This document shows, piece by piece, positions 3,533 through 23,112 of a DNA stretch of 23,112 nt. Each line of letters begins with the position of its first letter. Positions within the stretch are counted from its first letter, which is position 1. The notes beneath the pieces are model-generated. The model did no database searches. It saw only the letters and a list, made by a program, of their open reading frames with translations, and was not told where the DNA came from. This stretch comes from a virus. The position numbers and the translations under genes were made by a program. Location: the IMG/VR virus record IMGVR_UViG_3300047167_000015, positions 1 through 23,112 of that record; one strand, given 5' to 3'.

Positions 3533-4075
3533 ATGTCGGGCTCAAGACCATTATCAGATTCAGAAATCGAAGCAGTTCTGGGATATCTTACCTGCGTTAG
3601 AGATAAGACCATGTTCGTGGTAGGCCTTAGGAGTGGATTTCGTATCTCAGAAATTTTAAGCCTCACAGTCGCTAACGTAACCCAGTACGGCAAAGTAGCC
3701 AATCAAATCACAGTCAATCGTAAAAGCATGAAAGGTAAGCATTCTTCACGTACTGTCCCTCTTCATCCACAAGCTAAGAAAGCGTTGGAAGACTACATCG
3801 CAACCATGGGAAGCGTAAGACCTGAGACCAAGTTATTTGATTTCAAGCGCCAAAGGGGCCATAGTATTTTGAAAGAAGCTTTTAATAAGGCGCAGTTAGA
3901 GGGAAAGGTTTCAACTCATAGTTTAAGAAAATCTTTTGCATCCAGAGTCCATAAGGCATTGGGGGAGAATATCTATAAAACTCAACAAGCACTGGGACAT
4001 GCCTCTTTGAGTTCAACCGCACATTACTTGAGTTTTGACCAGTCCGAAATCAATGAAGCGATCGTGGGGGTATAG
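3533..4075 (+). CDS. Minimal tyrosine recombinase (catalytic domain only)
   Basis: The 180 residues contain the full tyrosine-recombinase signature: R37 in SGFRISEIL, a beta-hairpin lysine (K67 or nearby in KSMKGKHSSRTVPL), H129-x-x-R132 in THSLRKSF, H156 in LGHAS and nucleophile Y165 in AHYLSF. The N-terminal SAM-like core-binding domain of phage integrases (usually 300-400 aa in total) is absent, leaving a FimB/FimE-sized enzyme. These enzymes cut and rejoin DNA through a phosphotyrosine link. The role could be dimer resolution, inversion or integration. An AAGGAG site lies 7 nt upstream of the ATG. No inverted crossover sites were spotted around it. Confidence 0.88.
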   Translation: MSGSRPLSDSEIEAVLGYLTCVRDKTMFVVGLRSGFRISEILSLTVANVTQYGKVANQITVNRKSMKGKHSSRTVPLHPQAKKALEDYIATMGSVRPETKLFDFKRQRGHSILKEAFNKAQLEGKVSTHSLRKSFASRVHKALGENIYKTQQALGHASLSSTAHYLSFDQSEINEAIVGV

Positions 4076-4076
4076 G

Positions 4077-4283
4077 ATGGGTATGTGTTCAAAAGAAAAC
4101 TGTTATAATAGTGCAATGAGTACTGGAGTCTGTGGCGATTGTTCGGACGATTACGAGAATTACTCTAAGCCTAAAAAACCATTTGCGGAAGGAATGAACG
4201 AAGCTTTCCAGGCGATGGAAGAACGAATGGAAGCCTTGGAAGCAGATGTCAAACGTTTGAAAAGGGAATTGGGACTGAAATAA
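4077..4283 (+). CDS. Small zinc-knuckle plus coiled-coil protein
   Basis: It starts one base after the recombinase stop, with a GGGGG run upstream. A second ATG two codons on is possible. The N-terminus has C4-x4-C9-x8-C18-x2-C21, a likely zinc site, followed by an acidic linker. The C-terminus is a heptad coiled coil (AFQAMEERMEALEADVKRL, about residues 44-66). This suggests a small dimeric adaptor or nucleic-acid-binding protein. No family name can be given. Its position right behind the recombinase suggests co-expression and possibly a partner role (inference). Confidence 0.7.
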   Translation: MGMCSKENCYNSAMSTGVCGDCSDDYENYSKPKKPFAEGMNEAFQAMEERMEALEADVKRLKRELGLK

Positions 4284-4616
4284 ATGGATACCTTCTTCCT
4301 CTCCAAAAGTCTGCTAACCATTTCGAAACACAGACACTCCCGTATCCTATTCAAGAAAGAAAGACTTTACTATTACCGATATATGCTCAAGCTCAGTTAT
4401 AACCTAGAATATCTTGGAACCACAAAAATCGATAAGTGTTTAGAATATGTTAAGAGTTTTGAAGCCAAGCAAAGTAAAAGAATTAAAAATGGGCTTTTCT
4501 TTAAGCCGAAGAAGATGCTAGAGTTGGCGTGCAGGGATGCCGAAGACGTGCTGCACGGGATGAAGCGGTGGGATGGAGTAAGTCCTGGGCGGGAAGAGTT
4601 TGGTAATAATTTATGA
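4284..4616 (+). CDS. Basic hypothetical protein (110 aa)
   Basis: The ATG follows the previous TAA directly, with GGGA about 8 nt upstream. The product is strongly basic in its first half (SKHRHSRILFKKERLYYYRY), then helical with lysine-rich segments. The pattern would suit nucleic-acid binding, but no motif is present. It shares an ATGA overlap with the next small gene. Confidence 0.6.
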   Translation: MDTFFLSKSLLTISKHRHSRILFKKERLYYYRYMLKLSYNLEYLGTTKIDKCLEYVKSFEAKQSKRIKNGLFFKPKKMLELACRDAEDVLHGMKRWDGVSPGREEFGNNL

Positions 4617-4759
4617 AAAATAAAAACCACAAAAAAGTAGTTTTGGATGTTTCTAAGGTAACCTACGATGGAAATTCATTTGTCGTTACCTATAGTGCTA
4701 AGGAATTAAAGAAGAAGTTTAAGAAATTACAAAAGAGTCTAGCAAAGGGAGAAAAATAA
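4613..4759 (+). CDS. Very small basic protein (48 aa)
   Basis: A short frame with an ATGA overlap to the preceding gene and its stop directly before the next GTG start. The product has a strand-rich first half (KVVLDVSKVTYDGNSFVV) and a very basic helix (AKELKKKFKKLQKSLAKGEK). Upstream is GGGAAGAG, at rather long spacing. The seamless tiling with both neighbours supports it as a real gene. Function unknown. Confidence 0.6.
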   Translation: MKNKNHKKVVLDVSKVTYDGNSFVVTYSAKELKKKFKKLQKSLAKGEK

Positions 4760-4954
4760 GTGAGTGAGGAATTGACGGTTCTAAAAGAATATATCGATAG
4801 CTTGGGCTTAGACCCTAAGACTATGACCAGACAAGACCTGGTTACTCTAAGCAACGAGCTATTCGATGCAGATGAAGAAGGCTTGGCAAGACTTGTAGGT
4901 GGTTTAAAGAGTGGCCAAGAACTGGTGGATTACGTGGGAGGGGAGGAAGAATGA
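4760..4954 (+). CDS. Small acidic hypothetical protein (64 aa), GTG start
   Basis: It starts with GTG directly after the previous TAA, with GGGAG about 8 nt upstream. The product is acidic and predicted helical: LTVLKEYIDSLGLD, then a MTRQDLVTLSNELFDADEEG segment. It has the spacing of a small helix-loop-helix bundle. The C-terminal GGEEE is encoded by the purine-rich tract that also forms the GGGAGGGGAGGA ribosome site of the next gene (4-nt overlap). No family is recognised. Confidence 0.65.
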   Translation: MSEELTVLKEYIDSLGLDPKTMTRQDLVTLSNELFDADEEGLARLVGGLKSGQELVDYVGGEEE

Positions 4955-5220
4955 AAAGGTCTGAGATTGTCCTCAAATTAGAGAAAGCTTTCGGATTAGA
5001 TTGCGAAGGTCAACCATCCGCAGAAGATATCATTGATTTCTTAGAACAGAATGGAATGATTCCTCCTTTTAGTTCCAAGGCTGCAGCTAAATCTAATGAA
5101 ATTGATGCCGCTGGATACGAATGGGATTGCGAAGACCTTGATATGACCAACGTAACTAGGGCCGAGGTTCCGGGAACTGGGAAAACCATGGATGAACTAA
5201 GGAGAGGGGAGGAAGAATGA
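4951..5220 (+). CDS. Small acidic hypothetical protein (89 aa)
   Basis: A strong GGGAGGGGAGGA site precedes the ATG, which overlaps the previous stop (ATGA). The N-terminal helices (SEIVLKLEKAFGLD, AEDIIDFLEQNGM) resemble the packing of the preceding protein. The second half is acidic and probably disordered, ending in RRGEEE. The Glu-Glu-Glu ends of this and the previous protein both encode the ribosome site of the next gene, so C-terminal sequence and translation signal are shared. Confidence 0.65.
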   Translation: MKRSEIVLKLEKAFGLDCEGQPSAEDIIDFLEQNGMIPPFSSKAAAKSNEIDAAGYEWDCEDLDMTNVTRAEVPGTGKTMDELRRGEEE

Positions 5221-5378
5221 AAAATCATCTATTTATGTCAGCTTTTTATTTATTTATTGATATCATCTGGTGTATATGTTTAGACCCTAAATCACTTCCG
5301 GATATTGCCATAGCTTTACTCTTACTATTTTTGGGTCTTTATCGTCTTTCTCTTTACGAAAGAAGGCAATTCAAATGA
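5217..5378 (+). CDS. Small two-helix membrane protein (53 aa)
   Basis: ATGA overlaps exist at both ends (with the genes at 4951 and 5375), and GGGGAGGAAGA lies upstream. There are two hydrophobic segments: FMSAFYLFIDIIWCICL (about 6-22) and PDIAIALLLLFLGLYRL (about 28-44). The end is basic (YERRQFK), giving a hairpin with the C-terminus probably cytoplasmic. Such small inner-membrane proteins are common in phage accessory regions. The role is unknown, and holin-like or superinfection-exclusion functions are only possibilities. Confidence 0.7.
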   Translation: MKNHLFMSAFYLFIDIIWCICLDPKSLPDIAIALLLLFLGLYRLSLYERRQFK

Positions 5379-5587
5379 ACTGCGAAGTTTGTAAGGATCC
5401 TATTAAGTATATCTTTTATTCAGACCTGAACGCTGCTGGGAATACTGTGGTTTATTGCGAGGGGTGTTTCTGGAAGACGATTCTGGATAATTTCGAAGAT
5501 GCACCAAAAGATTGTGAGTGTGGGACTAAGGCTAGTAGGGGCCAAAACCACTCTGGCTGGTGCCAGATGTTTAAGAAGGAGTTTTAA
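5375..5587 (+). CDS. Small multi-cysteine, probably zinc-binding protein (70 aa)
   Basis: It overlaps the membrane-protein gene by 4 nt. Cysteines form C3-x2-C6, C28-x2-C31 and a further set (C-x-C in DCECG, then a His and C63 near the end). This suggests one treble-clef or zinc-ribbon site plus a second partial site. AAGAAGG lies upstream. The protein could bind nucleic acid or another protein. No family can be named. The next gene follows its stop by 1 nt, with AGGAG inside its last codons. Confidence 0.7.
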   Translation: MNCEVCKDPIKYIFYSDLNAAGNTVVYCEGCFWKTILDNFEDAPKDCECGTKASRGQNHSGWCQMFKKEF

Positions 5588-5588
5588 T

Positions 5589-5810
5589 ATGGGATGCTTT
5601 GATACTTATATTTTTGAATGTCCTTGGTGCGGTAAAGAAGTTAGAGAACAAGTCAAACCAGGATATATGAACACGTACAGGTTTGGAGAAGATCTAGAGC
5701 AAGACGTAGAGATGAAAGGTCATTATACCTGTTATGACGGATGTGGAAAAAATTTCTATGTTAAGTTCGAAACTTCTCCTAAAATGGTTATTGTGAAGGA
5801 CGAAACATGA
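5589..5810 (+). CDS. Small zinc-ribbon-like protein (73 aa)
   Basis: The ATG at 5589 has AGGAG 7 nt upstream; the frame is open further upstream but inside the previous gene. The product has C11-x2-C14 (FECPWCGKEV) and a second pair in YTCYDGCGKNF, the layout of a zinc ribbon with a long beta insertion. It resembles small phage proteins that mimic rubredoxin-type knuckles. Its function is unknown. An ATGA overlap joins it to the next gene. Confidence 0.7.
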   Translation: MGCFDTYIFECPWCGKEVREQVKPGYMNTYRFGEDLEQDVEMKGHYTCYDGCGKNFYVKFETSPKMVIVKDET

Positions 5811-6049
5811 AATTCGAACGAGGAAAAGTCTACACTCATCAGAATATGTTGGATCTAATTGTATTTGTCCAACAAGTATTTCCGGTGAATAAAGAATATG
5901 TAAGTCTAAAAGTAAGATGGTTTAACCGTAGGGGAATGGATATTAAACTAGAAGAAACGATTAAGATTAACAAGAGCGAACTTCCTAGATGGTATCAATG
6001 GAATGGGCAAACAGAGGATTGGTATTATAAAAAAGAAAACAAAAACTAA
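5807..6049 (+). CDS. Small basic hypothetical protein (80 aa)
   Basis: Its ATGA overlaps the stop of the zinc-ribbon gene. The product is beta-rich, with strands such as YVSLKVRWFNRRG and MDIKLEETIKINK, and it ends in an aromatic/basic tail (WYQWNGQTEDWYYKKENKN). No family is recognised. Its 3' end overlaps the next candidate gene by 47 nt in another frame, a longer overlap than elsewhere in the operon. Confidence 0.6.
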   Translation: MKFERGKVYTHQNMLDLIVFVQQVFPVNKEYVSLKVRWFNRRGMDIKLEETIKINKSELPRWYQWNGQTEDWYYKKENKN

Positions 6050-6167
6050 AAAACCAAAAAGAGAATGCGGGGAATGTTTTGCAAGTTTAAGGAGTTATGG
6101 AGCAGAACGGATTCTTTGTGGATGGTGTAGATTTAAGTCCCATAATTATGCTTTGGGTCTATTTTAG
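6003..6167 (+). CDS. Very small zinc-knuckle protein (54 aa)
   Basis: A short frame with an ATG inside the end of the previous gene. The product has a lysine-rich leader (KKKTKTKKPKR) and then C22-x2-C25 with C39-x2-C42 in RILCGWCRF, a plausible four-cysteine zinc site. The ribosome site is weak, and the 47-nt overlap is unusual. The paired CxxC motifs argue that the frame is real. The start could lie elsewhere. Confidence 0.5.
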   Translation: MGKQRIGIIKKKTKTKKPKRECGECFASLRSYGAERILCGWCRFKSHNYALGLF

Positions 6168-6181
6168 ATAAAGGAATCAAT

Positions 6182-6337
6182 ATGATTACTGTAATTAGTG
6201 CGGTTTTGGAAAATGTATGTTATTCGATTGTATTCGAAAAACTCAAATATCGGTTTATGGTAGATGAAGAATGCTTATTTGAATCTACTAGCTATATGGT
6301 CGTTAGAGCAGAATGGGGAAATGCTACTAAGTTTTAG
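6182..6337 (+). CDS. Very small hypothetical protein (51 aa)
   Basis: AAAGGAATC precedes the ATG. The product is 51 residues of mixed hydrophobic and acidic character, with no motif. It is the last gene of the left operon. Its stop overlaps the stop of the convergent - strand gene by 4 nt, with no hairpin terminator between them. Confidence 0.5.
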   Translation: MITVISAVLENVCYSIVFEKLKYRFMVDEECLFESTSYMVVRAEWGNATKF

Positions 6338-6807
6338 CCTTCTCTATCCTGGTTATTGAGTTTGTTAATCAAGCCCATATTGATTCCACCCGATTTAGGA
6401 AGTTCTTTTTTGGGTAGTTCGTCTTTAACGATAACCCGTTTATCTTTTTCCATGGAGCTATGTACGGCGCGACCTTCACGAATACGCTCGGCTTCACGCT
6501 CTTCAATTTGAGCCATTTCTTCACGGATAGCGGCTTCCTTCTTGGAATCGTAGTCAGCGTCGCTGAGATGACCCAAAAGATCCCGCAAGGATTCCATGTT
6601 CTCTTCTGGTTCCCAATCATCCAATTGATCAGAAAAGACGGCTGTTATAACAGTAAGAGGATCCATCTGTAAAACTTGACTTAATGGCTCTGAAAACTTC
6701 TTTGAGTAAGATCGACAATAACGCTGCCAAACTGCCGCCTCGTCTGGTACTAAACGAGCAGCTAAAGAAATAGTTTGGGCAGTATCAAGAAGATCACGAA
6801 GCGACAT
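6334..6807 (-). CDS. Putative tail-assembly-chaperone-type protein (157 aa)
   Basis: The ATG at 6807 is chosen over one ten codons upstream, because AAGG lies before it and the product then begins with a standard helix (MSLRDLLDTAQTISLAARLV). The N-terminal half (WQRYCRSYSKKFSEPLSQVL, then MDPLTVITAVFSDQL) resembles, from memory, proteins encoded between tail tube and tape measure in large myoviruses. The second half is a long acidic/basic helix (EEMAQIEEREAERIREGR) with a basic tail. These features suggest a tail-assembly chaperone or related cytoplasmic helper. The match is by pattern only. It is last in its operon and overlaps the HNH gene by 14 nt. Confidence 0.6.
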   Translation of the reverse strand: MSLRDLLDTAQTISLAARLVPDEAAVWQRYCRSYSKKFSEPLSQVLQMDPLTVITAVFSDQLDDWEPEENMESLRDLLGHLSDADYDSKKEAAIREEMAQIEEREAERIREGRAVHSSMEKDKRVIVKDELPKKELPKSGGINMGLINKLNNQDREG

Positions 6808-7735
6808 TTTTCTTAACCTTGTTAGCTTGATAATCAAGAATTTTCCGCATGTGTTCTAGGAATTCTTCTGGCGGTGTATCCATTTTACGTTGATTGCAAG
6901 GAAAACAACAAGGAACACAGTTTTCAATAGTATATCCTAGGCTACTATCTAATCTATCAATACCGTTAGCTTTTATCCATTGCTGGGAAACCCATTCATC
7001 TTTTATGTGAGAATGACTCGACGATTTACTACCGTCTTTTTTAGTATAAACATTGTAATCTCTAGGAGGTTCTCCATCCCAATAGCAATTTTGTCCTATT
7101 AAATATATAAATTGTTCGGTTGTTAGCTTATATTCTAAGTCCCTTGAAGTCGCAGCATTTTTACAACCACTTTCTAGAGCTTTATAGCTAGGCTGTCCAG
7201 CCAGTCCTCTATAAGTGCTTCCTCTTTCGGAGGACAATTCCGCAACTAAGCAACCGCAAGACTTTGTGTTTCCGCACTGTAAAGAGCTTCCTCTAATTTC
7301 CCTAGTAGTTCCACACTCACATCTACATAAAAAATATGTACATCTACCGGTATCGCTTTTATTGGTTTTTGACAATACCGTTAATCTGCCATACTTTTCG
7401 CCTGGCTGAACATGGTGACGTTCGGCTCGAAATAAACCAAGAAAACGGCACCTATGAATAGTCGCCATTCTCGTTCTTTTTAAGTTTTCGCTCATTTCGT
7501 CGTAGTTTAGAATTATAAAATTCTCTTTCAAAAAATCATCTTCTTCTTTTCTCCACCTATTACTAGTAATATCACGATTAAAAGACAAACCAAGTTCACC
7601 GCATTTTTTACGAATACAATTAGAGGTTACGTCAAAAATTTGTGCTAACTTTAAAGAGGTCGTTTTGTCACAATTGGCTATTAAATAATCCTCTTCTTCT
7701 TTGGTCCAAGCCTTTCTTTTGAAATAGTCACGCAT
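6794..7735 (-). CDS. HNH homing endonuclease with N-terminal SANT/HTH-like repeats
   Basis: The 313-residue protein has two N-terminal helical repeats resembling SANT/Myb or HTH DNA-binding units (RKAWTKEEEDYLIANCD near 8 and RWRKEEDDFLKENF near 60). A cysteine cluster follows (C137, C139, C141, C154, C160, C162), ending in the phage-HNH hallmark GNTKSCGCL. The C-terminal HNH module has NGIDRLD (258-263) and a zinc-coordinating ENCVPCCFPCNQRK (271-284). Such enzymes cut DNA at specific sites and spread by homing. AGGAAG precedes the ATG. It is a free-standing gene between two probable tail-assembly genes, not inside a visible intron. Confidence 0.9.
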   Translation of the reverse strand: MRDYFKRKAWTKEEEDYLIANCDKTTSLKLAQIFDVTSNCIRKKCGELGLSFNRDITSNRWRKEEDDFLKENFIILNYDEMSENLKRTRMATIHRCRFLGLFRAERHHVQPGEKYGRLTVLSKTNKSDTGRCTYFLCRCECGTTREIRGSSLQCGNTKSCGCLVAELSSERGSTYRGLAGQPSYKALESGCKNAATSRDLEYKLTTEQFIYLIGQNCYWDGEPPRDYNVYTKKDGSKSSSHSHIKDEWVSQQWIKANGIDRLDSSLGYTIENCVPCCFPCNQRKMDTPPEEFLEHMRKILDYQANKVKKNVAS

Positions 7736-7759
7736 TTTTCTTCCTTTTCTTTTTAGGGT

Positions 7760-7954
7760 TCAAACTATGTTTCTTGTAGATCTTAAAATTTGTTTCAGTT
7801 CTGCAATTTCTTCTTTCCTAGCAATTAACTCTAACTGTAATTCCACACACTTAGCACGCCATTTCTTTTTGCTATGAAGCTGATGATCATCGTAGACACT
7901 AAAATCTAAATCGAATAGATCATCGGGACCTAAAGCGTCGTCGTAGATAGACAT
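7760..7954 (-). CDS. Small coiled-coil hypothetical protein (64 aa)
   Basis: The product has an acidic aromatic N-terminus (YDDALGPDDLFDLDFSVYDD), a basic linker and a heptad helix (CVELQLELIARKEEIAELKQ). This fits a small dimer or an adaptor that docks on a partner. The ribosome site is weak. It lies between the two proteins resembling tail-assembly chaperones. No family is recognised. Confidence 0.6.
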   Translation of the reverse strand: MSIYDDALGPDDLFDLDFSVYDDHQLHSKKKWRAKCVELQLELIARKEEIAELKQILRSTRNIV

Positions 7955-7988
7955 GGATTACTTGCCCATTCTCTTTTTCATAATCTCG

Positions 7989-8468
7989 TTATTTTTCTTC
8001 TTCTTTCTTCTTTGGATTCAAACTCTCATGCAACGCTTGAGCGGCTTTTTGAGCTTTTTCTAAGGCTTCTTCTTTGCGTTTAACGAGGTGCTGCTTATAG
8101 GCTGCTTCGGCGGTGAGAGACCTATCCAAGATCAAGGAAAGTATATTTAAATCAGGTACGTTGCCGGTTTGATCTAGGTTCCACCAAGGCGGCCCTTTAA
8201 TTACACGCTTAGTGAGTTGAGACAAAGAAAAGGCAAGGTAACGATCTTGTTCCCCAGCGGCATCACCGTAAGGCCCTAGGAGTTCACGGAAGTGGCGACC
8301 TGCGGCCAAGCTATCTAGGGGGTTGAGATAGCAACGAAGGGTAAAGACCCCTTTGTACGAGCCCTGAAGCTGCCCTTCTTCGTTAATCGTGAAAATTGCG
8401 GTGCCTTCGGGATTCACAACTAAATCATCTGGTAGGACTACTGGCTTTAAATCTGTTGGTTGTTCCAT
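7989..8468 (-). CDS. Putative tail-assembly-chaperone-type protein (159 aa)
   Basis: The product has a beta-rich first third (GTAIFTINEEGQLQGSYKG, FTLRCYLNPLD), a helical middle with a VIKGPPWWNL motif, and a lysine/glutamate-rich C-terminal helix. This layout, including the PPWW and the charged tail, resembles small proteins encoded near tail tube genes in large phages and proposed as tail-assembly chaperones. It is recognised by pattern only. There is no Shine-Dalgarno sequence. The upstream -10 element TATAAA ends 7 nt before the ATG, so the message may begin at the start codon. It is the first gene of the short leftward operon. Confidence 0.6.
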   Translation of the reverse strand: MEQPTDLKPVVLPDDLVVNPEGTAIFTINEEGQLQGSYKGVFTLRCYLNPLDSLAAGRHFRELLGPYGDAAGEQDRYLAFSLSQLTKRVIKGPPWWNLDQTGNVPDLNILSLILDRSLTAEAAYKQHLVKRKEEALEKAQKAAQALHESLNPKKKEEEK

Positions 8469-8474
8469 GATCGG

Positions 8475-8483
8475 TTTATATCA
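8475..8483 (-). promoter_or_regulatory. Extended -10 promoter TGATATAAA for the leftward operon
   Basis: On the - strand the sequence ACTTATGATATAAA contains an extended -10 (TGN followed by TATAAA at 8480-8475). No good -35 is seen. The expected start site falls at or within a base or two of the ATG at 8468. Confidence 0.6.
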
Positions 8484-8521
8484 TAAGTTCGTAAGGCCAA
8501 AACGAGACGGATGGCACAACA

Positions 8522-8731
8522 TTGTTTTTAAGTGATTCTTTCCCATCTGACCAAAAGAAGTGTTTTGTGAGAGTTTTGGGCGAGTTTCAAATTGGGGCTC
8601 CTGGAAGCTTCTGGGAGGGGTTTAGGGGCAAGGAGACAGAAGAGAGAAAACTGTTTAACTCGGGGTATCCTGGAGCGGCTAATAGGATATTGGATGGTAA
8701 TCGATATAGGCGGTTTGGGCATTTTGTCTAA
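8522..8731 (+). other. Open frame without a convincing start; possible gene remnant
   Basis: A 69-codon frame runs from a TTG at 8522 to TAA at 8731. It has no ATG and no ribosome site. The DNA is purine- and G-rich compared with its surroundings, and the translation (for example NSGYPGAANRILDGNRYRR) looks more protein-like than random frames here. It may be a decayed gene, a gene with an unusual start, or part of an untranslated RNA. The opposite strand also carries an open frame of similar length. Confidence 0.25.
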
Positions 8732-8750
8732 AAATTGGCTTTTATATTTT

Positions 8751-8759
8751 TGATATAAT
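8751..8759 (+). promoter_or_regulatory. Extended -10 promoter TGATATAAT
   Basis: A perfect extended -10 element (TGN plus TATAAT at 8754-8759) after an AT-rich stretch. The predicted start is near 8766. There is no coding start for about 275 nt downstream, so the transcript would have a long leader or be non-coding. Confidence 0.6.
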
Positions 8760-8760
8760 T

Positions 8761-8872
8761 GCCGGGCTGCCGCCCGTAACCAAAAGAGAAGAAAAATACC
8801 ATAGCCTATACTATAGTCTTATCTATAACTAAGTCATGGTCTAGTCTTAATACCTATGTCTTTGGTATTCTT
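8761..8872 (+). other. Possible structured leader or small RNA
   Basis: Just after the TGATATAAT element lies a GC hairpin CGGGC-TGCC-GCCCG (8763-8776), in contrast to the AT-rich surroundings. Further on, AATACC (8795-8800) can pair with GGTATT (8864-8869), GAAG (8788-8791) with CTTC (8870-8873), and CATAG (8800-8804) with CTATG (8854-8858), forming an interrupted long stem. TAGTCTTA occurs twice inside the loop (8815-8822 and 8842-8849). No frame of note is present. An RNA is suggested, not shown. Confidence 0.3.
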
Positions 8873-8957
8873 CCTTATAGCAACAAAAAACCGGATTTTT
8901 GATTAGTATATTAGTAATATTAGAAAGGGGTTCTAATTAGTGGGCAATCCGTGCACC

Positions 8958-8982
8958 ATGCAAATTCTGCCCTATGCAAATT
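8958..8982. repeat. Tandem direct repeat ATGCAAATT, candidate operator
   Basis: ATGCAAATT occurs at 8958-8966 and 8974-8982, 16 bp apart start to start. It lies directly upstream of the -35-like TTGACT (8989) of the next rightward promoter, which is a usual place for an activator or repressor. Confidence 0.5.
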
Positions 8983-8988
8983 TTTCGC

Positions 8989-9015
8989 TTGACTCTATAA
9001 AAGTTATGATATAGA
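8989..9015 (+). promoter_or_regulatory. Promoter of the rightward accessory block
   Basis: TTGACT (8989-8994) is followed 15 bp later by TATAGA (9010-9015), preceded by TGA to give TGATATAGA. The predicted start is near 9022, leaving a short leader with a GAGAGAAG ribosome site before the ATG at 9041. Confidence 0.65.
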
Positions 9016-9040
9016 CTTTTGGGAGAAAGAGAGAAGTGAC

Positions 9041-9541
9041 ATGACCCCGTATAGTTTTTATAAATTGCCGTTTGAGGAACAACTTAAAAATGCTAATATG
9101 AGTATTCTTAACGAGTTTGATTTCTACAAACATTCCATGGAAAACCGACAACGACTCCTAGTTGCAGCCAACCCTCTATGGGAGGAACTTGAGAACAAAC
9201 TCTTGTTAGTTGGTGGAGACGGAGTGGTTTACAATACCGAACCACACCTGGATATACTTGTGTCGAGAGGAGTCCCATTCAAAGGGAAATCTACTTTACA
9301 AAAACTAGAGAATAGTCGTTGTCATAGCAATATAGCGTTTATGTGGTCAAGTCTAAAAGACGAAGGATTTCAGATTGTTACTGGATGGGCCTTAACCAAA
9401 TCAGATAACAGATGGAGACAACATACTTGGGGATTAACTAAGGATAAAATTACTGAGACCACAGTTAAACGATCTAAATATTTCGGTGTAATTTTAACAG
9501 ACGATGAGGCGAAGCAATTTTATGCAGAAAATTCATACTAA
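9041..9541 (+). CDS. Conserved-looking hypothetical protein with Cys/His/Glu motifs (166 aa)
   Basis: A purine-rich GAGAGAAG lies before the ATG. The C-terminal half carries an ordered set of motifs: CHSN (about 93-96), a VTGWALTKSDNRWRQHTWGL segment, ITETTVKRSKYFGVIL, and a final DDEAKQF helix. From memory this resembles a widespread uncharacterised bacterial and phage family. The order Cys, then His followed by a strand and an acidic residue, recalls papain- or transglutaminase-like folds, but this is speculative and no enzyme is claimed. It is the first gene of the rightward block, behind the promoter with the tandem repeat, so it is probably expressed early or under control. It overlaps the next gene by 20 nt. 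Confidence 0.7.
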   Translation: MTPYSFYKLPFEEQLKNANMSILNEFDFYKHSMENRQRLLVAANPLWEELENKLLLVGGDGVVYNTEPHLDILVSRGVPFKGKSTLQKLENSRCHSNIAFMWSSLKDEGFQIVTGWALTKSDNRWRQHTWGLTKDKITETTVKRSKYFGVILTDDEAKQFYAENSY

Positions 9542-9914
9542 TTTTTTTAAACTACCTACTAATATACTCAAGTTCGATTTGAAAGGACATGAACTTCCTG
9601 TTCTTGTTTATTTATTCTATCTATCAGACAACGATATAGTCCATCCCTCTAAACAAACTATAGCAAATAAAGTGGGCCTAAGTAGGCGTACTATTGATAA
9701 GATCATAGCCTCGTTGGTTAAAAAAGGATTTATCGAATACAACAGAGGCTTCATAAAGAATACTAAGAAAGTGTGTAATCAGTATCGCATTCGGGTTGAA
9801 AACTTTGCTCCGGAATGTCTCGATAAAAGCCAGAAACAAATTGATCGTGAAAACGAGAATGAAGAAGAATGTAATCAAATGATTAGGAAATCTATAACCG
9901 GAGAAGATGAGTAG
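9522..9914 (+). CDS. Winged helix-turn-helix DNA-binding protein (HTH_36-like)
   Basis: The ATG at 9522 (MQKIHTNFFKLPTNIL) is chosen. It has GAAG 7 nt upstream and starts like the family; an ATG six codons earlier is less likely. Residues 1-85 show the replication-initiator type winged helix: a FFKLPTNILKF start, PVLVYLFYLSDND, HPSKQTIANKVGLSRRTIDK as helix-turn-helix, then a wing (LVKKGFIEYNRG). The C-terminal part is acidic and probably flexible. In phages and plasmids such domains occur in replication initiators and regulators. The small size suggests a regulator or the DNA-binding part alone. It could act on the tandem repeat upstream, but that is inference. Confidence 0.75.
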   Translation: MQKIHTNFFKLPTNILKFDLKGHELPVLVYLFYLSDNDIVHPSKQTIANKVGLSRRTIDKIIASLVKKGFIEYNRGFIKNTKKVCNQYRIRVENFAPECLDKSQKQIDRENENEEECNQMIRKSITGEDE

Positions 9915-9972
9915 AAACTATTTGATATTTATAAGATAATATATTAAGCTATTTATTATAGGAGATTTCAAA

Positions 9973-10302
9973 GTGGATAAAAATATGATTGTTGAGCTTT
10001 TGATGCTCGCTAAGGAAATGGAATCTTGCCCATGTGTAGTGATTGATGACGATGACAATAAAACGATTCCCGCGTATGGAGACAGGCTTTTTAATTTGGG
10101 TCTAGATATGCTAGATGTACCCCCAGATAATACTGTTGATTGCAACGATCCATCTAGAATGTTTTGTAGGGACAGCTTCGGTTCCGACTTCATGGATCTA
10201 CCCCATGACAGAAAAGCAATTGAAAAATTTGCTAATCAGGTACTAAAGGACATTGAAGAATACGAAAAACAAACCATCAAAACTGCCCAGCTAGATTGCT
10301 AG
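9973..10302 (+). CDS. Acidic hypothetical protein (109 aa), GTG start
   Basis: The GTG start is set by a GGAG 8 nt upstream; an ATG four codons later lacks one. The product is acidic, with a helix (NMIVELLMLAKEMES), a Cys-Pro-Cys, an acidic loop (VIDDDDNKTIPAYGD) and a C-terminal helix (FANQVLKDIEEYEKQ). No family is recognised. AT-rich DNA (9915-9960) containing TGATATTTA precedes it and may hold a promoter. Confidence 0.65.
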   Translation: MDKNMIVELLMLAKEMESCPCVVIDDDDNKTIPAYGDRLFNLGLDMLDVPPDNTVDCNDPSRMFCRDSFGSDFMDLPHDRKAIEKFANQVLKDIEEYEKQTIKTAQLDC

Positions 10303-10311
10303 GAGACCCTT

Positions 10312-10599
10312 ATGTTTGAAACCTTAAACACCGCTGGATATGACCTATACCAATTACCGAATCATCCAGACCTTTGGGCTATTGACCCCAAGCATTCTGA
10401 CGAATATTCTGGAAGTTTAAAACAAGTTGTTGTTTACATGATTAAGAAATTAGGCTTTGACATGGACGAGATCGAAGAAGGTATTAATATCTTGGCCGAT
10501 AACGTGGATAAGTTCCACAATTGCTGCCATTTTGGAGCCTATAAAACCCCTATGTTCACTTACAAGAAAGAGAGTAATTATGACCGACGAGCAAGTTAA
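10312..10599 (+). CDS. Hypothetical protein (95 aa)
   Basis: GGAG lies 6 nt before the ATG. The product starts with a small beta-rich unit (TAGYDLYQLPNHPDLWAIDP), followed by helices (SLKQVVVYMIKKLGFD and EIEEGINILADNV). A FHNCCHFG segment carries two Cys between two His, which might bind metal. No family is recognised. It overlaps the next gene by 20 nt. Confidence 0.65.
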   Translation: MFETLNTAGYDLYQLPNHPDLWAIDPKHSDEYSGSLKQVVVYMIKKLGFDMDEIEEGINILADNVDKFHNCCHFGAYKTPMFTYKKESNYDRRAS

Positions 10600-10894
10600 T
10601 TCAGTTCTAGACAATCAAAGTCTTTTGTTTCAATGGGCTAATGAAATCGAAGATCTTAAAGCACAGCTTAAGCACAAACAGGGACAGTTAGAAAGTGTTA
10701 TGGTCAAGCTTGGTTTGAATACATACCATCAAGATCCAATTACTGGCGTGGTTTATAAGATTTATAAACCGGATGGCACGTTTATTGCGTACAAAAGTAT
10801 CGATGTTAAGCGTACAGCACTCCCTGGAGAAAAGGGTGGGACCGTGCTAGCTAAATCAGAAGCTGAAAGTATGGGATTTGTTTTAAGAAAATGA
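10580..10894 (+). CDS. Coiled-coil hypothetical protein (104 aa)
   Basis: The ATG at 10580 is preferred to the open upstream frame, because it has GAGAG 6 nt before it and opens on an ordinary protein (MTDEQVNSVLDNQSLLFQW). Residues 17-45 form a heptad helix (NEIEDLKAQLKHKQGQLESV). The rest is a small beta-rich part with several glycines. No family is recognised. The stop overlaps the next start as ATGA. Confidence 0.65.
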   Translation: MTDEQVNSVLDNQSLLFQWANEIEDLKAQLKHKQGQLESVMVKLGLNTYHQDPITGVVYKIYKPDGTFIAYKSIDVKRTALPGEKGGTVLAKSEAESMGFVLRK

Positions 10895-11046
10895 GCCTTA
10901 AGCTAATCAAGACCGACACTCTAGCTCCTTGTGAGAAATGCAAGGAAACCGACTTTATTTACATTACAAATGGGCAAGTGTGCATAAATTGCACTTTACT
11001 TAGATGGTCCACTTTATCTAATGATATAAAAGGCAAAAGAGGTTAG
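10891..11046 (+). CDS. Very small zinc-ribbon protein (51 aa)
   Basis: The start overlaps the previous stop (ATGA). The product has C14-x2-C17 (APCEKCKE) and C32-x2-C35 (QVCINCTLL), a compact four-cysteine zinc-ribbon layout, with a basic end. It is probably a small metal-stabilised protein like the similar ones in the left operon. The promoter motif TGATATAAA for the next gene lies in its last codons. Confidence 0.6.
   Translation: MSLKLIKTDTLAPCEKCKETDFIYITNGQVCINCTLLRWSTLSNDIKGKRG
11022..11030 (+). promoter_or_regulatory. Extended -10 promoter TGATATAAA
   Basis: TGATATAAA (hexamer 11025-11030) lies at the end of the zinc-ribbon gene. It would give a leader of only about 12 nt for the gene at 11049, so part or all of the ribosome site could be near the 5' end. 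Confidence 0.45.
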
Positions 11047-11048
11047 TT

Positions 11049-11297
11049 ATGACTCCAGATATGAGAGTTTTGAATCTTCAGCATTATGGTGAAACTCCCG
11101 AAGAAGATCTGGAAGTGACGCTTTCACCAATGACCATAAAAATGGTTGCGGCCAAAAATGTTACGGTTCAAGGTAGAGAAGTCAAAGAAACCACTATTTT
11201 ATTCCTTGATTCTGAGCCAGTGACCTTAAACCTTAATTCTATTGATTTACTTTCCCTACAAAGTGTCATAGGGGCTTACTCGTTTGGGTTTGAATAA
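11049..11297 (+). CDS. Hypothetical protein (82 aa)
   Basis: GAGG lies 8 nt upstream. The product is predicted beta-rich with repeated threonine/valine strands (EVTLSPMTIKMVAAKNVTV and ETTILFLDSEPVTLNL) and a C-terminal YSFGFE. This could be a small beta-sandwich. No family is recognised. The last base before the convergent - strand gene is its stop, so the two genes abut tail to tail. Confidence 0.6.
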   Translation: MTPDMRVLNLQHYGETPEEDLEVTLSPMTIKMVAAKNVTVQGREVKETTILFLDSEPVTLNLNSIDLLSLQSVIGAYSFGFE

Positions 11298-11672
11298 TTA
11301 ACGAGCGTCTACGAGCCGCGTTAAAAGTGCGACCATGGATGAATGTTGGTCCGACAAGTCCCTGCGTAACTCATCGATTTTATTACCTAAATTTTTTAAT
11401 TCTCCATCATACATCTGACGCATATGGCTTAAATCTTTGTCAATATTCTGCTTATTGCTTTCGATCTCTTCTTGAAGATTTCTGATTTTTAACTCTAATC
11501 TAGCTTCAATTTTGACTAATTGTTCATTAGCTTCATCCAAGATAGCCTGGCGCTCACGGTCCTTCTTGGCTTGTATTCCATACCGAACATGCCTAAACGC
11601 TGTATATAGGCCCCCGAGAGCTGTTATGGCTCCTGCTGATGTTCCTAACAAAGTCGATGGATCTACAATCAT
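11298..11672 (-). CDS. Membrane-anchored coiled-coil protein (124 aa)
   Basis: The N-terminal hydrophobic segment (about 7-27, STLLGTSAGAITALGGLYTAF) is a likely membrane anchor. It is followed by positive residues and a long heptad coiled coil (about 38-115, for example IEARLELKIRNLQEEIESN). The soluble coil is probably cytoplasmic by the positive-inside rule. Such layouts occur in phage spanin-like, scaffold-like and unknown proteins. It is the only leftward gene inside the rightward block and is transcribed divergently from the holin-like gene. GAGGAG lies 9 nt before the ATG and can pair with CTCC next to it, so translation may be structured. Confidence 0.65.
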   Translation of the reverse strand: MIVDPSTLLGTSAGAITALGGLYTAFRHVRYGIQAKKDRERQAILDEANEQLVKIEARLELKIRNLQEEIESNKQNIDKDLSHMRQMYDGELKNLGNKIDELRRDLSDQHSSMVALLTRLVDAR

Positions 11673-11713
11673 TGGAGTAATCTCCTCAGAATAAAGATTG
11701 AGTTTTTAACTTA

Positions 11714-11744
11714 TGATATAAGTAGTTTAGGTATTTGATATATA
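11714..11744 (+). promoter_or_regulatory. Two extended -10 elements upstream of the membrane gene cluster
   Basis: TGATATAAG (11714-11722) and TGATATATA (11736-11744) lie in the AT-rich gap between divergent genes. Both are on the + strand and would serve the gene at 11775. The first shares the 10-mer TTATGATATA with the promoter at 9004-9013. Confidence 0.55.
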
Positions 11745-11774
11745 AGCATAAAATGATTAATAGAGGCGTAAGTT

Positions 11775-12041
11775 ATGGAAACTAAAGAAGAAGGGTTTTT
11801 CGATTTCCTTCTAGGTTACAGGAAAACCTTGGCATGGGTGAGCTTATTCATTATTTCCATCATTTTTAGGCTCAAGGGCTATATTGATGGCGGCCAGTTT
11901 GTAGATCTAACCAAAGCGACTTTCCTAGGATTTATCACGGGAAACCTAGGAGAACATCTCGGTAACCTCGGTAAGTCTTACTTTAATAGTAAGACCTTGC
12001 CTCCAGCCATCAAAGAAGTCGTAAGTAAAGTAGAAAGATAA
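11775..12041 (+). CDS. Small membrane protein, possibly holin-like (88 aa)
   Basis: AGAGGCG lies upstream of the ATG. The product has an acidic, soluble N-terminus, a transmembrane helix (about 18-33, TLAWVSLFIISIIF), and a second weaker hydrophobic stretch (about 46-60, TKATFLGFITGNLG) before a basic C-terminus. The size and layout would suit a phage holin or accessory membrane protein, but no holin signature is identifiable. It leads a cluster of membrane-associated genes (11775-13653) behind two promoters. Confidence 0.6.
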   Translation: METKEEGFFDFLLGYRKTLAWVSLFIISIIFRLKGYIDGGQFVDLTKATFLGFITGNLGEHLGNLGKSYFNSKTLPPAIKEVVSKVER

Positions 12042-12043
12042 AT

Positions 12044-12169
12044 ATGAAAAACAAATATAATTGGCTTGTAGCTATCTTGGTTCTTGTCTGTATCGGAAAC
12101 GCGTGGTGGAGGCTTTATAAGACCTATCATCAGCTGTTTGACAAACCTCAGCAATGTAGGGTTAAATAG
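12044..12169 (+). CDS. Very small single-span membrane protein (41 aa)
   Basis: The ATG follows the preceding TAA by 2 nt, with AAGATAAAT upstream. The product begins MKNKYNWLVAILVLVCIG, a basic start followed by one transmembrane helix (about 6-20), then WWRLYKTYHQLFDK. The Cys in LVLVC is not in a lipobox context. Tight packing on both sides supports the gene. It could be a small lysis-cluster protein. Confidence 0.55.
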   Translation: MKNKYNWLVAILVLVCIGNAWWRLYKTYHQLFDKPQQCRVK

Positions 12170-12170
12170 T

Positions 12171-12476
12171 ATGTGGACTAAGGTTAAGGCCGTTGCGGCC
12201 AGTATTTGGACAGATGTAGTTGATACATATAAACGCACCAAAGTTTTTCTTCTAGGGATTTTGGCTCTCGTCGTTTATATTGAATGGCAGAAGATTAAAA
12301 CTACTTGGCTTGTAAAAAGCGGACAAGCCGAAGTCAAATCAGATAACAAGCAAGATGCTTCACTGACTAAGACGGAACAGGTAGACAATCAACAAGCTGA
12401 AGCCCTTGTTGCTCAGGCAAATCAACTACCTTCAACCGAACAACCAGTTACTGAAGACTGGTATAAAAAAGATTAA
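12171..12476 (+). CDS. Single-span membrane protein with a polar tail (101 aa)
   Basis: The ATG at 12171 is preferred to the TTG-opened frame upstream, because it directly follows the small membrane gene. The N-terminal part (about 1-22) is amphipathic, a transmembrane helix (KVFLLGILALVVYIEW, 24-39) follows, and the rest is a polar, Gln/Ala-rich tail (VDNQQAEALVAQANQLPSTE). The layout is like inner-membrane spanins or small anchored regulators, but the tail is shorter than usual and the identity is unproven. Confidence 0.6.
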   Translation: MWTKVKAVAASIWTDVVDTYKRTKVFLLGILALVVYIEWQKIKTTWLVKSGQAEVKSDNKQDASLTKTEQVDNQQAEALVAQANQLPSTEQPVTEDWYKKD

Positions 12477-12478
12477 TT

Positions 12479-13264
12479 ATGAATATTTTTTATGTTTATT
12501 TACATATTGATCCCAGAAGTAATCAAGTTAGATATGTGGGGAAGGGTAAAGAAAATAGAGCTTTTACTTTAACTCATAGAAGTGCACGCCATAAGAATTG
12601 GATTAATAAATTAAAATCTCTTGGTCTTATTCCTATTATACAAATAATAGAAAATAATCTTTCTGAAGAGGAAGCCTTTAGTAAAGAAAAATATCTTATA
12701 GCTGAATATAGAAGTAGGAATGTTGATCTAACCAATTTAACAGATGGAGGAGAGGGTATATCCGGTTACAAACATACTCAAGAAACACGTAAAAAAGTTG
12801 CAGAGGCAGGAAAAGGACGAACGGTTACTGACGAGACGAGAGAAAAGATATCCAAGGGATTGATAGGTAAAAAACGCAGCCAAGAAACTAAAGATAAGAT
12901 ATCTCTATTACACAAAGGAAGACCTTCTTGGCATAAGGGAAAGGTACGATCAGAAGAATTTAAAAACAAAGTAAGTGCTAGCAAACGGGGTAAACCACAA
13001 ACACAAAAAGCTCGTCAGAGCAGTATCTCTAATAGTTCTTTTAAGAAAGGATTTATACCCTGGAACAAGGGAATGTTGGGCTGGAATAGTGGAAGCGATA
13101 ACTATAGGTCCAAAGAGGTTATTGATATAAATACCGGTTTTATATGGATTTCTTTGACTCAAGCAGCGGAAGTTTATGGGATGTCTTTCAGAACACTGCA
13201 TAATTGGTTAACAGGTATTTCCCCAAATAAAAGCTCGTTACGTTACGTAAAGGATGTTGTATGA
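12479..13264 (+). CDS. GIY-YIG homing endonuclease with NUMOD3 repeats
   Basis: The N-terminal GIY-YIG domain has YVY at 5-7 and YVG at 19-21, followed by the conserved Arg near 27. Then come repeated NUMOD3-type units (GYKHTQETRKKVAEAGKGR, ETREKISKGLIGKKRS, and others to about residue 180), which contact DNA. The end is an IENR-type helix-turn-helix (NTGFIWISLTQAAEVYGMS). This is the SegA-like free-standing homing endonuclease layout. There is no ribosome site, and the 3' end overlaps the next gene by 4 nt. It separates membrane genes that otherwise form a series. Confidence 0.9.
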   Translation: MNIFYVYLHIDPRSNQVRYVGKGKENRAFTLTHRSARHKNWINKLKSLGLIPIIQIIENNLSEEEAFSKEKYLIAEYRSRNVDLTNLTDGGEGISGYKHTQETRKKVAEAGKGRTVTDETREKISKGLIGKKRSQETKDKISLLHKGRPSWHKGKVRSEEFKNKVSASKRGKPQTQKARQSSISNSSFKKGFIPWNKGMLGWNSGSDNYRSKEVIDINTGFIWISLTQAAEVYGMSFRTLHNWLTGISPNKSSLRYVKDVV

Positions 13265-13653
13265 AAAAAATATTTTTAATTTTATTTCTGATTTTATTCG
13301 CTGAAAATAGCTGTTTCGCGAATTGCGATTGGAAAACAGGAATCACTCCCGGACCTAATCATACGTTTATCTATACAGAATCCTGTCATTTGGCTGTAGG
13401 CCAACTCGTTTCTGATTCGGCTGTCAAGGATAAACAGATTTCCGATCTTACTACCGCTTTGGACTTAAAGAACGCTGCTTTGGTTATTGCTGATCAACGA
13501 ACCGCTTTGTGGGAAAAAACGAGTGATGACCAGCTTATGCGCTTAAACACTATGCAGGCAGACCAACACCATGATAATACGCTGGCATTCGCCCTCGGTG
13601 TTGCCACCACGTTTCTAGCCGCCTACGCTGCAGGACAGATTATTCACCGCTAA
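13261..13653 (+). CDS. Exported protein with signal peptide, cysteine pair and C-terminal membrane helix (130 aa)
   Basis: A Sec signal peptide (1-20, cleavage after CFA) is followed by a soluble part with C22 and C42, which could form a disulphide. A heptad helix (about 53-100, KDKQISDLTTALDLKNAAL) comes next, and a C-terminal hydrophobic helix (about 106-126, NTLAFALGVATTFLAAYAAG) with a short basic end. From memory similar proteins are found in phage lysis regions. The topology would suit a protein anchored in the inner membrane with its coil in the periplasm, spanin-like, but the class is not established. AAAGGATG lies in the end of the GIY-YIG gene. Its stop overlaps the convergent gene by 14 nt. 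Confidence 0.65.
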   Translation: MKKIFLILFLILFAENSCFANCDWKTGITPGPNHTFIYTESCHLAVGQLVSDSAVKDKQISDLTTALDLKNAALVIADQRTALWEKTSDDQLMRLNTMQADQHHDNTLAFALGVATTFLAAYAAGQIIHR

Positions 13654-19420: not shown

Positions 19421-19456
19421 AAAACACCTTGCTTTAAAGATTAGGCTTACACTAAT

Positions 19457-21099: not shown

Positions 21100-21160
21100 T
21101 ATATAGTAAAGATTGGTCTAATAGGGATTAGATGGGTAAGATCAAGAATAAAATAAAAAA

Positions 21161-21762: not shown

Positions 21763-23112
21763 TTATGCCGATTGCTGAACAGCAGAAATGCTGAAAGTAA
21801 TTGGAATAAAGTAAATTGCAGTTGCAAGGTAGATGTTAACCGAAATTGTCATTGTAGGTGCAGAGATAGTTACCTTAGCATTGTTGAATCCGAGTGGAAC
21901 TCCATTGCTTGGTGCGATTAATTTCAACTGCATGTATTGGGCCATCTTTTGTGTCAAGAAGGCAGAAGCTGATGCAGCAGAAACGTCTGCTAAACTTTGA
22001 CCAACAAAGGCCTGAGTGAAACTAGACTTCAAATCAATGGTGATAACGTCTGCGTCATAAACCGCTTGAATTGAATTGTATACGAAGTTGGTATCCGTGA
22101 GATAGGTAGTCTGGTCAGAAACCCACTTAGGTCCACCGACATCCGTCCACAGCGGTAGCAATCCCGCGCTCAATGCCTCCGACGTGTCTCCTGGATCACC
22201 AGAATTATAGTCAGATGGATCGATTACGCTGATAACATTTGCATACTTGTTACAAATGCTCTTGTAGAATCCACCTAATTGCATTCCCATTGCGATACAT
22301 GCTGCGTACCAAGGTTGGAACTGAGTGATAACTCCAGCCGAATTAACCTGTGTAACATTTTGGAAGGCAAGAGTACAACGGAAAGTTGCAAGCGTTTGTG
22401 CAACCATTTGTGCTGCAGCAAAAGTTCCATTGTTGGAGAGAATAGCCATACGATTTCTATCAAGGCTAGGATCGCTCATTTCCAAACAATGCGATTTAAG
22501 AAGAGCGTCAATAGCAGCGATAGTATAAGTACTTGCAGGATCGGTTTGTCCAGCAGTAATATCTGCACTTGCGTTTTGTGACATCAAAGGAACAATGATA
22601 TTACAAGTAATAGCGGCCAAGTCATTAACAGCGTTAACGATATCAGACGCCAAAGTTGCACCACGAGCACCGCCAGCAAGATAAGCTGGAAGAGCCATTG
22701 GAGCTGGCAAACCTGCGGTAGCCGTAGCCGCAAAGGTCATAATTCTAGAAATGGACATTGCCTGTTCGAAAGCAGCTAAGCCATTTTTAATACGACCTGG
22801 TTCATCCCCTGCACCAGTCGAAGCTATACCGATTGAAGAGACATCGTCAAGAGCACTGGTAGGAAGTTGGTTTGCAGCAGGAACCACCGAAGCAGAATAT
22901 CCTGGTTGGCTTGCAATGAATCCCGCAAGAGTCCCGATGGTTGAATACTCAGTCAATTTAATGGAGAGGTTTCCACCCGTTCCGTCGACCACAGTAGTAG
23001 AAAGTGTTCCAGCGGCTTGATTAATGGTCAACGTAGCACTGGTACCGAGATAACCAACAGTCAAAGCAACATCAGCTGCAGCAGAAAGAGTTTCAGAAAC
23101 TCCACGAGTCAT
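21763..23112 (-). CDS. Tail sheath protein (C-terminal part, cut by window edge)
   Basis: The last 449 residues are visible. The ATG at the very edge may be internal, because sheath proteins are commonly longer. The first part is a beta-type domain (GYLGTSATLTINQAAGTLST to TLAGFIASQPGYSA). A middle helical/beta region with RNRMAILSNNGTFAAAQMVA follows. The C-terminal region holds GGPKWVSDQTTYLTD and NFVYNSIQAVYDADVI, then APTMTISVNIYLATAIYFIP, the C-terminal arm strand of sheath subunits. Sheath monomers form the contractile outer tail tube. The following gene is the tube protein, 24 nt downstream, which supports the call. Confidence 0.8.
   Translation of the reverse strand: MTRGVSETLSAAADVALTVGYLGTSATLTINQAAGTLSTTVVDGTGGNLSIKLTEYSTIGTLAGFIASQPGYSASVVPAANQLPTSALDDVSSIGIASTGAGDEPGRIKNGLAAFEQAMSISRIMTFAATATAGLPAPMALPAYLAGGARGATLASDIVNAVNDLAAITCNIIVPLMSQNASADITAGQTDPASTYTIAAIDALLKSHCLEMSDPSLDRNRMAILSNNGTFAAAQMVAQTLATFRCTLAFQNVTQVNSAGVITQFQPWYAACIAMGMQLGGFYKSICNKYANVISVIDPSDYNSGDPGDTSEALSAGLLPLWTDVGGPKWVSDQTTYLTDTNFVYNSIQAVYDADVITIDLKSSFTQAFVGQSLADVSAASASAFLTQKMAQYMQLKLIAPSNGVPLGFNNAKVTISAPTMTISVNIYLATAIYFIPITFSISAVQQSA

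Follow-up and report, generated by a model that had tools for sequence, protein, structure and literature searches.

The DNA analysed here (the window) is the whole of the 23,112-bp IMG/VR record IMGVR_UViG_3300047167_000015, in which non-coding DNA totals 2,201 nt and gaps make up 9.5% of the length. The biggest non-coding gap, at 8469-9040, measures 572 nt against 284 nt for the runner-up, so that the large gap claimed in a preliminary description was borne out at about twice the size of the next; the strings named there were likewise all in place. The sole relative found with matching gene order was IMGVR_UViG_3300029908_000007 (G003, 162,308 bp). The features of the gap, its flanking genes and a second divergent gap are as follows:

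6794-7735, - strand: HNH/endonuclease VII-like gene, the only recognisable one among the other leftward genes
7989-8468, - strand: gene of unknown function, ortholog of G003 8387-8863 (47% identity, with the alignment extending to the first residues)
8474-8489, - strand: predicted extended -10 promoter AACTTATGATATAAAC, TATAAA hexamer at 8480-8475, with 6 nt to the ATG at 8468
8475-8483, - strand: TGATATAAA, string confirmed at this place
8749-8759, + strand: extended -10 element TTTGATATAAT without a -35, predicted start ~8766
8751-8759, + strand: TGATATAAT, string confirmed at this place
8763-8776, + strand: short GC hairpin CGGGC-TGCC-GCCCG where the 8751 promoter is predicted to start, with no terminator-like T run
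8791-8873, + strand: imperfect long-range pairing of 8791-8804 with 8860-8873 (86% complementary)
8952-8983, + strand: two direct 16-nt units containing ATGCAAATT, directly upstream of TTGACT
8989-9015, + strand: predicted TTGACT-15-TATAGA promoter with extended -10 TATGATATAGA, predicted start ~9022
9041-9541, + strand: first rightward gene, function unknown, predicted leader ~19 nt
9504-9914, + strand: winged-helix protein (start 9504 or 9522), resembling the N-terminal domain of DnaD/O-type initiators
11700 (G003 11256), leftward: CAATCTTTA motif, conserved in the second divergent gap
11712 (G003 11267), rightward: extended -10, conserved in the second divergent gap

Gene order is common to window 3533-13653 and G003 4532-12380, and the tail sheath protein encoded at 21763-23112 shares 75% identity with that of G003 and 42% with its counterpart in Myxococcus phage Mx1. 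The orthologous gap in G003 (8864-9505, 642 nt) is likewise divergent; the window gap is flanked leftward by the ortholog of G003 8387-8863 and rightward by genes non-homologous to those of G003. DNA searches with the gap among phage records, both near-identical and distant, gave no significant match. The flanking proteins retrieved G003 alone from viral contigs, and only via an alignment including G003 or a direct search of G003, and they had no match in bacterial genomes. Across the viral and bacterial genome collections no record besides G003 carried the locus, and its conservation as described here rests on this one relative. Two ORFs within the gap (8522-8731 on the + strand, 8528-8722 on the - strand) were rejected as hidden genes, being without counterpart in relatives. 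Conservation of the gap interior against G003, the promoter excepted, was significant against Markov shuffles but was dropped because shuffles preserving local composition gave 2%, 10% and 42%, depending on the gap penalty; the CCAAAACGAG word beside the leftward promoter is suggestive only of possible conservation. The content of G is twice that of C across 8469-8700, and the + strand at 8590-8640 holds runs of GGGG, GGG, GGGG and GGGG, a possible G-quadruplex that is not evidently conserved. Elsewhere in the window, Rfam identified a tRNA at 1085-1157 on the + strand (53.6 bits) that ARAGORN missed, and its predicted anticodon loop, CUUAUAU, points to UAU as the anticodon (Ile, AUA codons). 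In G003 two genes overlap (11677-11991, 11988-12380); between their orthologs in the window lies a gene that by sequence is a GIY-YIG-like endonuclease (12479-13264, +), a mobile endonuclease cleanly inserted.

In each of the three extended -10 elements of the gap, TGn directly precedes a TATAAT-like hexamer (TGA-TATAAA, TGA-TATAAT and TGA-TATAGA). A generic scan for -35/-10 pairs gave no excess in the gap (3 sites vs 3.3 expected) and no -35-paired site for 8475 or 8751, TTGACT being found only at the 8989 site. In G003, TGATATA topped the 7-mer enrichment within 60 nt upstream of 207 predicted starts (17 vs 1.6 expected, p = 8e-13), and T[AG]TGNTATA sites were mostly intergenic and oriented toward the next gene, with agreement in nearly all intergenic cases; several copies carried TTGAC upstream at the usual spacing. 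A matrix was trained on 18 G003 sites, leaving out the orthologous one, and scanned over the window. Its top six matches, 9005 (+), 11712 (+), 8485 (-), 8749 (+), 11734 (+) and 11020 (+), were all intergenic, after which the score dropped from 11.5 to 8.8. Three lay inside the gap: the 9001-9016 element with TTGACT ranked first in the entire window, the leftward element third and the 8749 element fourth. About 0.6 matches per window are expected at the score of the leftward element vs three found, and single matches are weak alone. We judged the -10 elements real because of the comparison with G003, not because of generic tests. Enrichment, matrix ranking and this comparison support the earlier proposal of divergent control by three extended -10 promoters, which, read from sequence, appear to be members of a phage-wide family. 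The second divergent gap (11673-11774) is also kept in G003, before orthologous genes.

At the leftward promoter, the 16 nt GGTTTATATCATAAGT (window 8473-8488) are identical to G003 8868-8883 at the orthologous place, where matches of at least 15 nt arose in 0.2% of shuffles; the proteins encoded next to it are 47% identical. Both phages have 6 nt between the last -10 base and the ATG, and a Shine-Dalgarno sequence is absent before the ATG in both (CCGATC in the window, CCCACC in G003). In both phages the motif supplies an in-frame stop, its TGA, 15 nt ahead of the ATG, reading TGA TAT AAA CCG ATC ATG in the window and TGA TAT AAA CCC ACC ATG in G003; because of this stop, together with homology to the first residues, the start codon of 7989-8468 is fixed. 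Going by the usual sigma-70 spacing from the -10, the first transcribed base would be the A of the ATG or its neighbour, and the predicted start near 8468 stands out in that position 8468 is this very A. Since the spacing is 6 nt, no Shine-Dalgarno sequence is present and the motif holds the in-frame stop, the mRNA of this gene is probably leaderless. The genes transcribed leftward had been described as tail genes, a label that found no support: 7989-8468 matched nothing in PHROGs or NCBIfam and gave a Pfam match only below threshold, 6794-7735 is an HNH endonuclease gene, and the recognisable tail gene, the sheath at 21763-23112, is ~13 kb away beyond the rightward block. G003 has unrelated genes at the place of 6794-7735, with similar proteins encoded at 79180-79914 and 28646-29260.

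The short spacing recurs elsewhere in G003. Among 17 gene-tied intergenic sites, the start codon lies 17-20 nt past the first base of the motif (6-9 nt past the -10) in nine, at 29 nt or more in the remainder, and at 21-28 nt in none. Counting ATGs after TRTGNTATANN, a procedure independent of gene calls, gave a maximum at exactly 6 nt (6 sites vs a mean of 0.85 per offset). Genes with the short-spaced motif in G003 include those for a sigma-70-like factor, RNase H, a portal-like protein and homing endonucleases. In Mx1, TRTGNTATA is nearly absent (3 sites, none before an ATG).

On the rightward side, TTGACT at 8989-8994 and TATAGA at 9010-9015 are 15 nt apart by direct reading, with TG before the hexamer. 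G003 has TTGACT in the matching relative place (~9380), after which the sequence differs. A counterpart of the 8751 element was not found in the G003 gap, where the nearest string, TTTACGATATAAG, is without TG. Gene 9041-9541 has no match in Pfam, PHROGs, NCBIfam or the phage collection. The next product (136 aa) matched Pfam HTH_36 (37.3 bits, cut-off 25) and DnaD_N (28.8 bits, cut-off 27), as well as PHROG 186, a DnaD-like helicase loader (E = 8e-14); a PDB search gave no match. The winged helix of the supposed regulator gene was thus confirmed, but its product most closely matches replication initiators and helicase loaders rather than repressors, and a role of this product in the gap region is a possible one. 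In G003, the leader of gene 9506 contains a very stable hairpin with a 12-bp outer stem (9449-9502); the GGGAG just before the ATG falls within the 3' arm of this hairpin, raising possible translational control, and the region 9406-9505 folds at z = -5.9. This hairpin is absent from the window.

Other readings of these elements were weighed against promoters. The TTATGATATAA element, with its TTAT/ATAA arms, forms a small palindrome and could be an operator or other DNA signal, with transcription beginning elsewhere; the 11708 copy is palindromic (ACTTAT-GAT-ATAAGT), and a site right on a start codon would suit a repressor. The element nevertheless conforms to TRTGnTATAAT, the extended -10 consensus, down to its asymmetric TG, and the TTGAC upstream of several copies and the agreement of motif direction with the next gene also speak for promoters, making an operator here quite improbable. 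The ATGCAAATT copies, starting at 8958 and 8974, had been proposed as an operator; in a switch reading, the 9504/9522 winged-helix protein would bind them and balance both directions as in immunity regions. They are present on the + strand as direct repeats, spaced by one unit and immediately 5' of the -35, and the winged-helix gene lies downstream. The corresponding position in G003, upstream of its rightward TTGACT, holds a direct repeat of different sequence, with GTGGAGTATTG at 9296 and 9319 (23 nt apart, region 9296-9329), a third AGTATTG between them and a repeat run of 11 that 0.8% of shuffles reach. The ATGCAAATT pair is absent from the G003 gap and borderline by chance (5-8%), since 8.4% of shuffles hold a 9-nt repeat run within 40 nt and 5.3% a 16-nt unit (13/16), so that the pair is an unproven, putative operator. 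The G003 gene at the winged-helix position is without such a domain by Pfam or PHROGs, the best relatives of the 9504 protein are initiators, and there is no sign of a temperate phage immunity region. With these points against it, the control switch is unsupported and we consider it unlikely.

A replication origin was considered as well, with the repeats as iterons for the initiator-like 9504 protein and the AT-rich stretch 8890-9015 as unwinding element. The DnaD/O-like matches, the AT-rich stretch and the position of the repeats next to the gene are in its favour, but there are two repeats only, the protein is an N-terminal domain alone (136 aa against ~300 aa), and in G003 the cumulative GC skew peaks near 120-124 kb and shows no extreme at the gap; an origin here is very unlikely. 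The preliminary description had also raised an untranslated regulatory RNA from the 8751 promoter, running from 8766 to ~9020. The -10 element is good and is followed by 275 nt without a gene, and a selected 129-nt segment (8757-8885) folds at z = -2.3 (4/200 shuffles). This signal is lost in the putative 256-nt transcript (8766-9021), which is no better than shuffles (z = +0.98). Rfam returned no credible family for the gap, no terminator for the 8751 transcript was found in the gap, no element in the G003 gap matches the candidate RNA, and the interior similarity to that gap is not robust. The RNA is unsupported on this evidence and appears to us a remote prospect.

We consider it fairly likely that the gap holds the divergent promoters of a large contractile-tailed phage. 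Leftward, the extended -10 TTATGATATAAA would begin transcription at, or about 1 base from, the ATG of 7989-8468, and ribosomes would enter this leaderless mRNA by its 5'-terminal AUG. Rightward, TTGACT-15-TATAGA with its extended -10 would give a start at ~9022 for the block of gene 9041 and the winged-helix gene, to which the weaker extended -10 at 8751 may add a transcript with a 275-nt leader. These promoters would belong to the phage-wide set, presumably read by RNA polymerase with the host primary sigma factor. As judged from sequence, the gap is a genuine divergent promoter region and looks like ordinary back-to-back phage start signals, the leftward one being kept in a distant relative.

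A wider reading is that the phage group uses leaderless mRNAs extensively, through TRTGATATAnn-N6-ATG for early/middle genes and CAATCTT-N6-ATG for structural genes read with a sigma factor of its own. Upstream of G003 genes a second word, CAATCTT(TA), is enriched; it also occurs in G008 and Mx1. In Mx1 it precedes portal, baseplate and other genes, and the ATG count peaks 6 nt after it (5/32 sites, mean 0.54). This peak at offset 6 is thus shared by two independent motifs, which lends support to the predicted RNA 5' end at or near the AUG of 7989-8468. The recurring intergenic motif [CT]AATCTTTA occurs in the window at 11692-11700, 19435-19443 and 21107-21115 (all - strand) and also in G003, G008 and Mx1, often with an ATG 6 nt past CAATCTT, and many copies precede structural genes; the gap 8469-9040 contains no CAATCTT. 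The motif looks like a candidate late promoter of the group, perhaps read by the phage sigma-like protein. The gene for the sigma-70-like factor of G003 (3701-4776), which has homologs in G008 and Mx1, has a TTATGATATATA element of its own, with 9 nt between this element and the ATG. We hold this wider reading tentatively, with the balance leaning slightly against it; it counts the sigma-factor gene itself in the TRTGATATAnn class with a 9-nt spacer, and the gap holds one such promoter. If true, a lytic-type phage group with two AUG-start promoter classes would offer a handle on non-canonical initiation in phages, and the motif a way to time-stamp genes in phages whose only cultured member is Mx1. 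The gap matters mainly as the clearest conserved instance of the arrangement.

Neither extended -10 promoters nor leaderless mRNAs in phages are new in themselves. The elements described here resemble the extended -10 (TGn) promoters of sigma-70/sigma-A in their TRTGnTATAnn form and dispensable -35, but they appear as a phage-wide set, often 6-9 nt before an ATG, with starts that are predicted. Most known cases of leaderless phage mRNAs concern single genes, the lambda cI repressor among them. In PY54, mapping placed the 5' ends of the cI and cro transcripts at the AUG, and the cro promoter lies immediately upstream of the start codon (PMC4488713). Unlike lambda cI and PY54 cI/cro, the present locus is no repressor locus, and its layout, predicted from sequence, recurs at other genes. 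As with the gp55-type late promoters of T4 (TATAAATA), G003, G008 and Mx1 have sigma-like proteins and a short -10-like element, CAATCTT, before structural genes, but the sequence differs, the motif is not in the gap and the sigma dependence is putative. In the jumbo phages phiKZ and AR9, recurring short motifs define temporal classes, and the genes of G003 and the window can be sorted likewise. AR9 has leaders of 26-491 nt and its own multisubunit RNA polymerases, and the AR9 paper (PMC5312081) notes that transcripts of phages are often leaderless. Set against these systems, what may be new is that the arrangement recurs among the members of a phage group and in two putative promoter classes.
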